Of a DNA stretch of 32,970 nt, positions 35 to 20,906 are shown piece by piece. Location: IMG/VR virus record IMGVR_UViG_3300044624_002315, positions 1 to 32,970 of that record. One strand, 5' to 3'. The notes under the pieces were generated by a model, which saw only the letters and a program-made list of their open reading frames with translations, was not told where the DNA came from and made no database searches. The position numbers were made by a program, and so were the translations under genes. This DNA comes from a virus. Position 1 is the stretch's first letter. Each line of letters begins with the position of its first letter.

Positions 35-409
35 ATGGATTTATTATTTGTTTACGGTACTTTAATAGAAAATAAAAAAACAAAAATACATAAACTTTTA
101 AACAAAAATAGTTTGTATATATCTAAAGCTGTTTTTCAAGGTAAACTTTATGATACAGGAAAATATCCAGCAGCAATAAAATCTAATAAAAAAAATGACA
201 TGGTTATCGGAAATATAATAAAAATATTAGATTTAGAAATATTAAAAAAAATAGACGAATATGAAGGATTAGAGTATAAAAGAAATATAACGACATTAGT
301 AGCTAATAAAAAAAATATAAAAGCTTGGATTTATCTTTATTGTAAATCGATTGAGAAACATAAAAGAATAATATCGGGTAATTGGTTAAAATATAAAAAA
401 ATAGATTGA
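35..409 (+). CDS. Gamma-glutamylcyclotransferase-like (GGCT/AIG2) protein
   Basis: The 124-residue protein has the AIG2/GGCT signature: FVYGTL at residues 5-10 (substrate loop), G-K-L-Y-D-T-G-K-Y-P-A near 36-46, D-E-Y-E-G near 74-78 supplying the acidic catalytic residue, and A-W-I-Y-L-Y near 96-101 as the closing strand. Length is normal for the family. Characterised members cyclise gamma-glutamyl amines to 5-oxoproline, but phage members are mostly uncharacterised and the substrate here is unknown. A GGAG lies about 15 nt upstream of the ATG. It is followed by the structured RNA region. Family call is firm; function is inference. Confidence 0.8.
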   Translation: MDLLFVYGTLIENKKTKIHKLLNKNSLYISKAVFQGKLYDTGKYPAAIKSNKKNDMVIGNIIKILDLEILKKIDEYEGLEYKRNITTLVANKKNIKAWIYLYCKSIEKHKRIISGNWLKYKKID

Positions 410-412
410 CTG

Positions 413-420
413 ATTAAATA
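413..420 (+). promoter_or_regulatory. Possible late promoter box for the structured RNA
   Basis: ATTAAATA lies just after the stop of the GGCT-like gene and resembles the TATAAATA boxes elsewhere in the window. With T4 late geometry transcription would start near 426, just before the first stable hairpin of the RNA. One mismatch in AT-rich DNA, so weak. Confidence 0.3.
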
Positions 421-425
421 TATCT

Positions 426-1001
426 GGTAAATTAGATATAGTTCTTTGAAAAATTTAAAAAAGTTTAATGTTGGCTAGTCGAACCAGCATTAAAAATCCT
501 GATGCGAAACCCATCAGGTAACAAGGTATGCAACTCTACCTCTCTATACAACGGATACGTGTCCGTGTTCTGATCAGACATATAGAGTCCCATAGTGGAT
601 AACTTAAAAGTGAAAAAAAAGAGTGTAGGTTCTGGGTAAACCGAAGCTAGATTGGCTAAAACCCTTGTCCCGAAAGGGGTAAAGGTTCTGTGTTCTGATT
701 CTAAGCATTATGGCCCAATCGAACAACGATTGGCTTAGATAATGCCAGCAGATTAAGGCGCAACTTAATCGTCAGTCTGGTCCTGTTTGCGACAAAAACA
801 CCAATTTTTATAATCCGAGAATCCTAACGAGATTCTAGTCAGTACCCACTGATGAATAGAAGCTGTTCGTTACAGTAATAAGGGGGATGGTTGCCGTGAC
901 TCGCATACGGTGTGCGTAAGTTGACTCGTCTGAAAAGATAGGGAGTCCGTGCTTGATTCCGAAAGGAAAATGATGGTATGTAAAGACAGCCGAAATTTTT
1001 T
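426..1001 (+). ncRNA. Large structured non-coding RNA (~575 nt), GOLLD/ROOL-like candidate
   Basis: About 600 nt have no credible coding frame and a base composition well above the neighbours in GC. The strand folds into many local helices visible by eye: 464-474/484-494 (11 bp, one wobble), 498-504/512-518, 542-548/581-587 enclosing 551-555/562-566, 663-666/682-685 capped by CCC-GAAA-GGG at 669-678, 705-711/739-745 enclosing 715-721/727-733, 751-757/764-770, 786-789/793-796, 818-823/831-836, 839-843/848-852, 902-907/911-916, 923-927/943-947 with an inner GAAA loop, and 957-960/965-968 with a GAAA loop. Three GNRA tetraloops, a self-complementary TCTGATCAGA (569-578) and a repeated GTGTTCTGAT (565-574, 690-699) suggest tertiary or intermolecular contacts. 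It ends in a T-run (996-1001) and is followed 20 nt later by tRNA-Asn. Size, ornate folding, phage setting and tRNA adjacency match the GOLLD and ROOL classes; assignment to either is inference. I could not fit it to RNase P, tmRNA or a complete group I intron core. Confidence 0.7.
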
Positions 1002-1020: not shown

Positions 1021-1094
1021 TCCTTGGTGGGCTAACGGTAAGCCAACAAACTGTTAATTTGTTCATCATGCTGGTTCGAATCCAGCCCAAGGAG
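1021..1094 (+). tRNA. tRNA-Asn (GUU)
   Basis: A complete cloverleaf of 74 nt: acceptor TCCTTGG/CCAAGGA with discriminator G, anticodon stem ACAAA/TTTGT around loop CTGTTAA giving anticodon GUU, and a T arm GCTGG-TTCGAAT-CCAGC. CCA is not encoded. It lies 20 nt after the structured RNA and may share its transcript. Confidence 0.93.
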
Positions 1095-1162
1095 CTTTTA
1101 TTAAATGTATAAAAATGGTGTTATACTAAGCCAAACCATTATATAAAATGTTACATATAATA

Positions 1163-1176: not shown

Positions 1177-1731
1177 ATGAGTATAAATGCAGATCGTGTT
1201 AAAGCTTGGAGAAAAGATACTAAAAATTTAATTGTTGAAGGGTTTGGAGGAAAATGTTGTATATGTGGTTATGATAAATGTGAAGAAGCTTTTGATATAC
1301 ACCATATAGATCCTACTCAAAAGACATTATCTTTTGGAGGAATAAGAGCTAATCCTAAACAATGGAAAATTTTATTAAAAGAGTTAGAAAATTGCGTTTT
1401 ATTGTGTGCTAACTGTCACAGAGAATATCATGCAGGTAAAACTAACATCCCAAAAAATATTCCAAAATTTGTAGATTTAAAAGAAAAAAGAAAAATAAAA
1501 ACATATTGTCCAATTTGTAATAAGCAAAAAGCAAATTATCTTATAACTTGTTCAAAAACTTGTGCTGCAAAAAGAAAATCTCAAATCGAATGGGATAATT
1601 TTGATTTATATGATTTACACGTAATTCAAAAATTAAGTAATCTTAAAATAGGAAAAATAGTTGGTGCTTCTGATGTTGCAGTTATAAAAAGATTAAAAAA
1701 ATTAAAAATTTATCAACTTCAAAATAATTAG
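1177..1731 (+). CDS. HNH homing-type endonuclease
   Basis: The 184-residue protein has an HNH core with zinc knuckles: C-C-I-C-G at 27-31, D-I-H-H-I-D at about 40-45 (catalytic His), and L-L-C-A-N-C-H at about 74-80 with the last His of the fold. A second zinc ribbon follows (Y-C-P-I-C near 110 and C-S-K-T-C near 124), then a C-terminal helix-turn-helix-like stretch (IGKIVGASDVAVIKRLKKL) of the sort that gives homing endonucleases DNA specificity. It sits between tRNA-Asn and a small lipoprotein gene, a usual place for a free-standing homing endonuclease in a phage. The ATG follows a late-type promoter box. Its cutting site is not evident. Confidence 0.88.
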   Translation: MSINADRVKAWRKDTKNLIVEGFGGKCCICGYDKCEEAFDIHHIDPTQKTLSFGGIRANPKQWKILLKELENCVLLCANCHREYHAGKTNIPKNIPKFVDLKEKRKIKTYCPICNKQKANYLITCSKTCAAKRKSQIEWDNFDLYDLHVIQKLSNLKIGKIVGASDVAVIKRLKKLKIYQLQNN

Positions 1732-2753: not shown

Positions 2754-2903
2754 ATGAAAAAGTACTGCATATTTCCTGATGAAACTAAAATAGAACTTCA
2801 TTCAATTTTAGATGTAACAGATACACAAACATATATCTGTTATTATGATGAAAATCTTCCACAAACACTTTGGGTTCCGAATGATTTTTTGAGCAATGAT
2901 TAA
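2754..2903 (+). CDS. Small hypothetical protein upstream of the PurA-like gene
   Basis: A 49-residue frame starting MKKYCIFPDETKIELHSI and ending in FLSND, overlapping the next ATG (2896) by 8 nt, as in coupled translation. An early-type promoter fits its ATG. No domain recognised. The overlap and promoter argue that it is real and not an antisense shadow of the minus-strand gene. Confidence 0.55.
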   Translation: MKKYCIFPDETKIELHSILDVTDTQTYICYYDENLPQTLWVPNDFLSND

Positions 2904-3909
2904 ACACGTTGATGTTATTGTCGGTCTTGCTTGGGGGGATGAAGGCAAGGGTAAAATTTCAAGTGCAATGGCCAAAGACTATGATATGGTCTGTCGTTGG
3001 AATGGTGGACCAAATGCTGGTCATACTGTTTATTTGGATGGGAAAAAATACAAAACCCATCTGATTCCTTCTGGTGTTTTTCATGGAAAGAAATCTGTTA
3101 TCGGTCCAAACTGTGTTCTGAATATTGAGAAGTTTTTCAAAGAAATTGAATATCTAAAAGAAAATGGATTCGATACATCTTTGGTAAAAGTTCATCCAAA
3201 TACTCATGTGATTACGGATGCACACATTGAATATGATCTGAAACATTTGAAACCAAAACTTGGAACTACAGGTCAAGGTATTGCTCCTTGTTATGCAGAC
3301 AAAGCAAATCGTGTTGGTATTCAGGTTAGTAAAGCAAACTTCAATCCCTTAAAAGATTTTATTTGGGATGGAAAATTAGAAGGAAAAATTCTTTGTGAAG
3401 GTGCTCAAAGTATTTGGTTGGATATCAACTACGGTGATTATCCTTATGTGACAAGCTCTGAAACATTTCCTCACAATGCTTGTTCGCTTGGATTTTCACC
3501 CAAGAAAATTCGTGATATTATTGGTGTCGCTAAAATCTATGATACCAAAAGTGGAGTTGATCCGTTGTTTCCAGAATGTCTTTGGAGTGATGTAAAACTA
3601 AACAAGTTAATTGAACTTGGTCAAGAATTTGGTTCTACTACAGGAAGAAAAAGACTTGTGAATTGGTTGAATTTTGGAAGATTAAACAATGCTATTAATC
3701 TTTCAGGTTCAACCAAAGTAATCATCAATAAGTGTGATGTTTTTGAAAAAGTTGGAATCTTCCGAATTAATAATTTTTACGAAACATCTTTGGAAACAAA
3801 TTCTTTTGATCAGTTAAAAGACATCATTAAAAAGTCTTTGGTAAATCAAAACATCAATGGATTAAAACCAAATAATATTATTTTTTCTGGTGATCAGACG
3901 AATATTTAA
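2896..3909 (+). CDS. purA: Adenylosuccinate synthetase-family enzyme (PurA / PurZ0-like)
   Basis: The 337-residue protein is clearly of the PurA family: W-G-D-E-G-K-G-K at 13-20 (phosphate loop with the catalytic Asp15), G-G-P-N-A-G-H-T at 37-44 (catalytic His43), L-I-P-S-G at 56-60, G-T-T-G-Q-G at 123-128 (IMP loop), E-G-A-Q at 168-171, T-T-G-R-K-R at 248-253 (aspartate loop) and N-K-C-D at 278-281 (guanine recognition). Length matches the short archaeal form and phage PurZ, not the ~430-residue bacterial PurA. From memory, PurZ proteins that make the diaminopurine precursor from dGMP replace the catalytic Asp by Ser and use ATP; this protein keeps Asp and the GTP motif, so it is either an IMP-using PurA or a PurZ0-type enzyme. 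No DatZ- or MazZ-like partner is seen in the window. Family certain; substrate open. Confidence 0.88.
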   Translation: MIKHVDVIVGLAWGDEGKGKISSAMAKDYDMVCRWNGGPNAGHTVYLDGKKYKTHLIPSGVFHGKKSVIGPNCVLNIEKFFKEIEYLKENGFDTSLVKVHPNTHVITDAHIEYDLKHLKPKLGTTGQGIAPCYADKANRVGIQVSKANFNPLKDFIWDGKLEGKILCEGAQSIWLDINYGDYPYVTSSETFPHNACSLGFSPKKIRDIIGVAKIYDTKSGVDPLFPECLWSDVKLNKLIELGQEFGSTTGRKRLVNWLNFGRLNNAINLSGSTKVIINKCDVFEKVGIFRINNFYETSLETNSFDQLKDIIKKSLVNQNINGLKPNNIIFSGDQTNI

Positions 3910-18926: not shown

Positions 18927-20906
18927 TTATTTGATTGGACATGCACCGCCTTCACATTCCAAACCTTGAATAGCATCTTCTCCCATATCAGAAGATTTCA
19001 TTGTTTGAATTGGTTTAACTTTAGCTTTATTTTTTTCGTATGTTTCACCATTAATTTCTTCGTATGGTGCTTGTTTGAATCCGTGATTTTGTCTCAACAA
19101 AAAGCTTACAGATTTAATTGAATTTTGATAATTTTCTTCTAACCATTTTTTAAGCTCTGGAAGTTCTTCTTCCGAGTAATATGCGGTAACACTAACTGCA
19201 TTATCTGACCAAATAGTTTGAAGTTTTTTAACTGTTTCCAGTTGTTTGATAACTCCCATATCTGCTGCAAAAATTGCACCATCTGGTGTTTCGCACGGAA
19301 ACTCAATAACAACGGTATCATGATTTTCTGAGCCATCAAAATTGATGACATATTCGGTATGATATCCCATATCTCTGCAATATTGAACTAATGGATCATT
19401 ACTTGCCATACGAACACGACGAGTATAATATTTTGAATAAGCGGGGTGGATTCCTGGTGTAGCACCACCAAGAAGACTTAATGTTCCACTAGGCTTAATT
19501 GTTGTAAGTTTAATACTACGAGGCCATCCTTTTTGTTTACTCCACTCTTTATCAAATTTTCTCAATTCTTTATAACAATCGTCAAGCCAATCGACTTTAT
19601 CTAATGCTTGACAAACACCAGTTACTCCCAAACCAAGACGCATGTTCTTGTGAACAATTTTATTTGTTTCATCGTGAATGAATGGAAGTGCAGCGATTGC
19701 TTTTTGTGTTTTATAAAGCAATCTGGCACAATCAACCAATTCTTCTTTGTTTGAAATATTATTCAAATAAAGTTCTGAGAGATTGCAACACTCATAAGAG
19801 GCAAGACTAATTTCACCACATGGGTTTGTACCAACTACATTGTCTTCATCGGTTGGATAAAGACTAGAATCCTTCATTGGACCATCTTTAATTCTTCCAT
19901 ATTTTTGAGAAAGAGGAAGGTTAAAGAAACCATAAGGTTCGCCTTTTGCAAAACCAGTTTCTTTATCTGTTGTATAACCATTTTGCCAGATCTCGTTTGA
20001 GATGTGGGAAAAGTCATCAGCATAAATCGTGTTGTTAGACATTGCTCTCCAGTTAGGAATATTTCCCAATGACCAATTTTTGGCGCGTAAAAAGAGATAA
20101 TCATCAGGATCTCCTATAGCAATTTGGGCAGAGCGACGAACATTACCAGAAACAACAATACTTCCAATAATATTACAAATATCTAATACATCGATAGAAC
20201 GAAGCTTTTTGCCTTCTCTTGTTTGAAAGATTTTTGCAATTTTGTCAATACCTTCGATTAATATTCCTGCTCCGCTTGCTTGTCCACCGAAACCTTGAAT
20301 CTTTTCACCTGCACCACGAATAAGGATTGTAGAATAATTAAAAGATTTTCCTGTTACATAAAATGCATGAAGAACTCGATCTAAAAGTTCGATCCAGCCT
20401 TCACGACTATCTGGAATAATAAACTTTGCATCTTTTGTACATTCATGTGTAATCGTTACACCTTTTTTAATTTTAGGAAGTTCGTGAATATCTTCTCTAC
20501 GAATAGAAAATCCGACACCACCACCAAGCATTAAATTTTCAAATAAAAACAAAAATGCTTTTGGTTCATTCATAGACACATTCCAACAATTCAATAAAGA
20601 ATTTGCTCCAAAACGCTCAACTGTGTTTGTTCCTAATTGCCAAAGCATTCTTCCTGCATAGTTGCAACGCAAGTTGAAAATATGATCAAACAGTCTTTCG
20701 GCTTCTTCTTGTGTATAATCTGCACCTAGTTTTTGTGCTCCGTTGATACAACGTTGAATTGTTTCATGCCACTCTTCTTTTTGTCCATCGTCTTTTAAAC
20801 GAGCATATGTTCTTTTATAAACAATATAACCAAGTCCATTGAAACCCCAATTAGTTTTTTTGTTAGAATATTTTTTAACAAACGAATCCGAAATAATTTT
20901 TTCCAT
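18927..20906 (-). CDS. nrdJ: Adenosylcobalamin-dependent (class II) ribonucleotide reductase
   Basis: The 659-residue protein matches the monomeric class II reductase of the Lactobacillus leichmannii type. Key residues: Cys107 (L-L-N-C-W-N) and Cys374 (E-C-C-N-L) as the redox pair, Cys363 in N-P-C-G-E-I as the radical Cys, spaced 11 residues as in RTPR, I-K-P-S-G-T-L-S-L-L for substrate phosphate, and a C-terminal C-E-G-G-A-C (651 and 656) that re-reduces the active site. No class I small subunit or NrdD/G is seen. It makes dNTPs without needing oxygen but needs host B12. It opens the minus-strand pair with the SDR gene. Confidence 0.95.
   Translation of the reverse strand: MEKIISDSFVKKYSNKKTNWGFNGLGYIVYKRTYARLKDDGQKEEWHETIQRCINGAQKLGADYTQEEAERLFDHIFNLRCNYAGRMLWQLGTNTVERFGANSLLNCWNVSMNEPKAFLFLFENLMLGGGVGFSIRREDIHELPKIKKGVTITHECTKDAKFIIPDSREGWIELLDRVLHAFYVTGKSFNYSTILIRGAGEKIQGFGGQASGAGILIEGIDKIAKIFQTREGKKLRSIDVLDICNIIGSIVVSGNVRRSAQIAIGDPDDYLFLRAKNWSLGNIPNWRAMSNNTIYADDFSHISNEIWQNGYTTDKETGFAKGEPYGFFNLPLSQKYGRIKDGPMKDSSLYPTDEDNVVGTNPCGEISLASYECCNLSELYLNNISNKEELVDCARLLYKTQKAIAALPFIHDETNKIVHKNMRLGLGVTGVCQALDKVDWLDDCYKELRKFDKEWSKQKGWPRSIKLTTIKPSGTLSLLGGATPGIHPAYSKYYTRRVRMASNDPLVQYCRDMGYHTEYVINFDGSENHDTVVIEFPCETPDGAIFAADMGVIKQLETVKKLQTIWSDNAVSVTAYYSEEELPELKKWLEENYQNSIKSVSFLLRQNHGFKQAPYEEINGETYEKNKAKVKPIQTMKSSDMGEDAIQGLECEGGACPIK

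Follow-up and report, generated by a model that had tools for sequence, protein, structure and literature searches.

A large structured RNA beside a phage tRNA gene: evidence for a probable new family with a conserved 3′ core and interchangeable 5′ cassettes

To our knowledge, only a handful of large ornate RNAs of bacteria and phages have been described, and the role of the cage-forming ones is open. GOLLD assembles into a 14-mer nanocage and ROOL into an octameric nanocage. Here, we ask what kind of RNA is encoded ahead of a tRNA-Asn gene in a viral sequence of 32,970 nucleotides (hereafter, the window). The original prediction had placed at 426-1001 a large ornate non-coding RNA, either a member of GOLLD or ROOL or a new relative of them.

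The region has the properties of an RNA gene. As had been claimed, 426-1001 is devoid of a coding frame: no ORF of at least 50 amino acids was found, and each frame of the + strand carries 12-15 stops with a longest open run of at most 40 codons. Its GC content also exceeds that of its surroundings (0.411 as compared to 0.309 for the remaining window), a level reached by 28 of 1621 sliding windows. The minimum free energy of the fold is -156 kcal/mol (z = -3.2), and none of 100 shuffles was equally low. The gene is thus described as a GC-rich, highly structured, non-coding RNA of about 560 nt on the + strand, from 440 to ~1003 (Table 1). The 5′ end is presumed to lie near 440, directly after a promoter-like site. 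The RNA would end either near 1003 or where tRNA-Asn begins; as reported, it is positioned 20 nt before this tRNA. The genome is indeed T4-like, with a gp18-type sheath and a T4 Rnl1-type RNA ligase. The phage is far from cultured ones, the best sheath matches showing about 35% identity across one third of the protein.

Table 1. Features of the window, and order of the modules in the window and in homologous loci
Feature	Position	Strand	Remarks
Sigma70-like promoter TTGACT-N16-TAAATT	406-433	+	TG before second hexamer; consensus scan
boxA-like element AGTTCTTTGAAAA	440-452	+	Presumed RNA 5′ end
Hairpin W1, 11 bp	464-494	+	4 pairs changed on both sides among 4 sequences
Hairpin W1b, 7 bp	498-518	+	One compensatory pair; one mismatch in L005
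Hairpin region W2-W3	525-690	+	Kept in L047, L007, partly in L005
W2-W3 local stems	525-540, 542-587 (551-566 inside), 628-642, 663-685	+	GAAA tetraloop 672-675 in the last
Hairpin region W4	740-811 (751-770, 784-800)	+	One A-U/U-A compensatory pair in 751-770
Conserved 3′ core	812-994	+	15 distinct homologs; covariation; model R1
Core P1	818-836	+	
Core P2	838-853	+	
Core PK1 (pseudoknot)	845-847 with 882-884	+	
Core P3	862-876	+	
Core P4	889-901	+	
Core P5	902-916	+	CGG loop 908-910
Core variable stems	923-968	+	
Core terminal CAGCCGA	987-993	+	
tRNA-Asn (GTT)	1021-1095	+	ARAGORN and Rfam; presumed co-transcribed with the RNA
HNH endonuclease gene	1177-1731	+	Directly after tRNA-Asn; missing there in L008
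PurZ-like adenylosuccinate synthetase	2896-3909	+	phrog_1211, E 6e-71
Ribonucleotide reductase, B12-dependent (class II) insertion domain	18927-20906	-	
Order, window, L047, L007			boxA-W1..W4-core-tRNA-Asn
Order, L005			Window-type, plus G at W4/core junction
Order, L008			B′-boxA-core-tRNA-Asn
Order, L063			A2-A-D-boxA-E-G-B-core-tRNA-Cys
Order, L066			A2-A-D-boxA-F-E-B-core-tRNA-Cys
Order, L070			D-boxA-A-F-I-B-H-core
Order, L084			boxA-A-J-B-H-core-tRNA-Cys
Order, L142			A2-boxA-A-E-B-H-core-tRNA-Cys
Order, L139			A2-A-D-boxA-N-G-B-tRNA-Cys; no core
Order, L140			A2-boxA-N-B; no core

Homologs were found in uncultured phage contigs only. The PurZ-like gene, which suggests a 2-aminoadenine DNA chemistry, has relatives at 53 loci in IMG/VR. 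As a shared neighbour, it led to full-length relatives in L047 and L007 (about 80% identity) and L005/L006 (about 75%), in which the RNA also precedes tRNA-Asn; L003/L004 represent the same or nearly the same phage as the window (100%). Motif scans and the covariance model R1 of the core (E 1e-32 on the window core) added L008, L063, L066, L070, L075/L085, L082, L084, L088-L090 and L142, and a second, diverged core copy was detected on the L082 contig (E 4e-18). R1 found nothing convincing in 32 other PurZ-phage records, and nothing in ICP1 or, under stricter filters, in T4, KVP40, phiKZ, phage K and P-SSM2. BLAST of the window, L075, L089, L070 and L107 RNAs against 50,697 named phages returned tRNA or marginal matches or none, and the L063 RNA had zero matches in 72,556 plasmids. 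In 84,980 bacterial and archaeal genomes, the core pattern gave no convincing match; two matches were dismissed because no other core elements surrounded them. Many matches to loose patterns were dropped after reading, as chance or coding-looking, and weak R1 matches in G040 (E 0.09) and G049 (E 0.008) turned out to be unrelated sequence. All these searches are bounded by the collections used and by the exactness of the patterns.

Does the RNA belong to a catalogued family? With all 4227 Rfam 15 families at gathering thresholds, cmscan reported only tRNAs in the window. At E≤10, nothing noteworthy beyond tRNA appeared in 380-1120, including no match to group I, group II, RNase P or tmRNA models, in line with the original prediction. 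The OLE, HEARO and raiA models had no match at gathering in the window, nor up to E 10 in 380-1120, and the homolog loci at E≤1 gave tRNA-like matches and weak noise alone. The size, the pseudoknot, the GNRA loops and the HNH gene following the tRNA in the window might suggest a ribozyme or an intron, be it of group I, of group II or a nuclease-associated RNA. This is extremely unlikely: Rfam offers no match, L008 has no HNH gene at that place and, the downstream tRNA being intact, there is no split exon.

Searched at E≤10, neither the window nor the L003 and L063 contigs gave a match to the ROOL model (RF03087, gathering 99.1 bits), and the same search recovered the L. salivarius megaplasmid copy NC_007930 at 130 bits as a positive control. 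With the GOLLD model (RF02032, gathering 150 bits), the window gave no match and other records stayed below 8 bits, in a search that lacked a strong positive control. The RNA does occupy the GOLLD-type niche, a phage location near tRNA genes. Like GOLLD, it is a large structured phage RNA near tRNAs with a conserved 3′ and a variable 5′ region (PMC12286853), but GOLLD measures 800 nt or more as compared to about 560 here, and a stand-alone 3′ core, cassette shuffling and a boxA set the new RNA apart. ROOL, also a large structured RNA of phages and plasmids near tRNAs, has a similar length (PMC12286853); however, the 5′ region of ROOL is described as being intertwined with its 3′ region, whereas in the new RNA the two are separable. 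A GOLLD or ROOL diverged beyond recognition by the Rfam models would account for the common niche and similar size and, for GOLLD, for the conserved 3′ and variable 5′ regions (PMC12286853). This is nevertheless very unlikely, as neither model matches the window or its homologs although the ROOL control works, and neither a stand-alone core of ~150 nt nor cassette shuffling is described for GOLLD or ROOL in the text consulted. Membership in either family is therefore not retained, and kinship holds only in the sense of an RNA of the same kind. Judging from sequence comparison, the locus almost certainly represents a structured RNA family absent from Rfam. Other abundant phage transcripts of unknown function have been likened to GOLLD and ROOL by their authors, namely the ~800-nt non-coding transcript of ICP1 (PMC7567579) and the long lncRNAs of phage K (PMC9241854). 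They differ from the present RNA in that R1 matches nothing in either genome.

The 3′ part of the RNA forms a core of ~180 nt that recurs in 15 distinct sequences. In alignment A4 of these sequences, which leans towards the nested structure because it was fitted to R1, 12 pairs and 38 cells are changed on both sides, with means of 5.1 pairs and 9.9 cells in shuffles and maxima of 6 and 9 in slid controls. The same picture was obtained with the plain MAFFT alignment A1 (25 double-change cells versus 6.8 shuffled). The proportion of paired cells, 98.4% in A4 and 98.9% in A1, is less telling than these compensatory changes since the core structure was drawn up from the same sequences. The sequence of the P1 hairpin differs in each lineage, each single hairpin being only modestly better than shuffles. 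P2 (GUCAG/CUGAU) is wholly replaced in both diverged copies. The pseudoknot PK1 joins the P2 loop to a G-run, and one of its pairs is seen as C-G, U-A and A-U. Both the CGG loop of P5 and the terminal CAGCCG are invariant, and the two could pair with each other. Two further pairings were rejected. Loop UGGGUA of 628-642 with the P2 loop UACCCA is perfect in two of the four homologs only and competes with PK1; that between about 525-543 and 881-901, a long-range pairing in the RNAalifold fold, clashes with the core and was left aside.

For the window-type 5′ part, the comparison involves four sequences only. Over 90 local pairs of this part and the core, 98.6% of cells pair. Double changes affect 7 pairs as compared to 3.1 in shuffles, with one of 500 shuffles as high, and slid controls show at most one. 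Four of the 7 lie in W1, and the W2-W3 structure is weakly tested because its pairs are mostly invariant. Compensatory changes are thus found in homologs in both the core and the 5′ helices, which strengthens the view of a large ornate phage RNA beside a tRNA. Sequence details singled out by the original prediction fared unequally. The three GAAA tetraloops, around 672, 932 and 961, are present and closed by stems. The self-complementary 10-mer TCTGATCAGA does occur at 569-578 and the repeated 10-mer GTGTTCTGAT at 565-574 and 690-699. In L005, the palindrome is no longer intact (TCTGG-CAGA), and L047, L007 and L005 all lack the repeat's second copy. With neither element conserved among homologs, a function for either one as such is improbable. 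The kissing contact proposed for the palindromic loop was accordingly abandoned, the consensus fold being able to pair this segment with 775-782.

Across the loci, the 5′ part is built of modules. Structured, self-closed cassettes come and go from one phage to another, and their order changes. Visual inspection was used to set the cassette limits and to identify N, which was seen in just two loci. L005 carries a clean insertion of the 118-nt cassette G, with flanks matching the window on both sides. L089 and L090 are 98.6% identical over 147 nt, the core's own length, and their flanks differ. Cassettes G and H possess compensatory pairs of their own. Cassette B was not recognised in the window RNA. 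In nine loci, its two hairpin loops, GCCAGAA and UUCUGGC, show a complementarity of 7 nt, a length that is selected because the search took the longest complementary word. In L008, both loops are changed and again complementary over 7 nt (UGUUAAG/CUUAACA). Such joint replacement is hard to obtain by chance, which supports a putative loop-loop contact, either within or between molecules. Taken together, cassettes have very probably been exchanged between phages.

How far the parts depend on each other bears on the main rival explanation, an accessory RNA island of independent small structured RNAs, co-transcribed and then cut apart, in which each cassette would bind its own protein or RNA partner, for instance as a decoy for host factors or defences, and the core would be the most widespread cassette. 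The core indeed stands alone in L082 and L088-L090 and is accompanied only by G-H in the second copy of the L082 contig. F-G and B lie at separate places in L107, and at one locus both the content and the order of cassettes vary, a common trait of accessory genes. On the other hand, the order W1-W4-core is constant in the four window-type phages, one boxA and one promoter suit a single transcript, and no processing sites were identified between cassettes. We consider this explanation unlikely. For a single RNA with interchangeable domains, free cassette turnover and the stand-alone cores argue against one rigid assembly, and L139 and L140, which have no core where other loci have one, argue against the interpretation itself.

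boxA is the antitermination signal of rRNA operons, where it precedes tRNAs. The element at the presumed start of the window RNA fits 10 of the 11 positions of the gamma-proteobacterial consensus GYTCTTTAANA (PMC5725501). The exact sequence GTTCTTTGAAAA occurs once in the window, and the pattern AGTTCTTT[GT][AT][AC]A has 14 matches in 391 kb of both strands, of which 13 correspond to one per multi-module locus (13/13 loci) and one is stray. Promoter consensus matches are equally frequent in shuffles and are weak alone; TTGACT-N16-TAAnnT is found at equal distance before boxA in L047, L007, L005 and L008. boxA does not invariably mark the 5′ end, since L063-type loci have cassettes upstream of it; as D and A2 precede boxA there, transcription probably starts further up. 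A boxA placed close to where a long untranslated RNA begins is the sequence feature of an antiterminated unit, and the phage RNA is probably antiterminated through it. The arrangement of a boxA-like element, a long untranslated structured RNA and then a tRNA recalls an rRNA operon leader, but the phage RNA is not ribosomal, one consensus position is off and antitermination is putative.

This likeness raises the alternative of a long leader without a role in trans, through which the tRNA behind it would be controlled in its expression or processing. Such a leader would fit with the tRNA lying directly after the RNA in most loci and with the succession of boxA and tRNAs in rRNA operons. It is very improbable, however: no tRNA follows the L070, L140 and L088-L090 versions, the next tRNA of L082 is on the opposite strand, and the tertiary-type conservation far exceeds the needs of a leader.

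Overall, the best explanation, and the one to which we lean, is that these large structured RNAs of phages form a new family whose domains are interchangeable and which would work in a GOLLD/ROOL-like manner outside GOLLD and ROOL themselves. Host RNA polymerase would start near 440, and boxA would load NusB-S10 as in rRNA operons, allowing the untranslated transcript to escape Rho termination. RNase P would then cut at the 5′ end of tRNA-Asn and thereby release the large RNA. Once released, the RNA would serve in abundance as a structural scaffold, in which the core would provide the shared platform and the cassettes would add accessory domains for RNA-RNA or RNA-protein contacts; this scaffold role is possible but somewhat doubtful. 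We also suggest, tentatively, that phages evolve large RNAs by shuffling self-closed, pseudoknotted cassettes at a boxA-carrying, tRNA-linked locus. Various multi-domain RNA machines would thereby be assembled on one shared 3′ core, in a process comparable to the evolution of multidomain proteins. The compact core of the new family lends itself to synthesis and probing, and versions that have or lack a given cassette provide a natural set of comparisons for asking about the role of each part. A further suggestion is that antitermination of the rRNA type has been borrowed by phages for a non-ribosomal structured RNA.

Several side observations were made at these loci. The position behind the RNA is taken by either of two clearly different tRNA-Asn genes, the first in the window and L005 and the second in L047 (9062-9135), L007 and L008 (6451-6522). 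L070, L075, L063 and L066 contain many dispersed intergenic repeats of ~50-100 nt with GC-rich palindromes ('ATCAAGCACTTACA..GCGCGCC..'). Finally, an 81-nt tmRNA-like tRNA-like domain, with no room for an mRNA-like part, lies on the minus strand of L131 at 2017-2097 (G010, about 57332-57408), upstream of that phage's second, G-H-core RNA; it scores 48.8 bits with the Rfam tmRNA model, as compared to a gathering threshold of 47.
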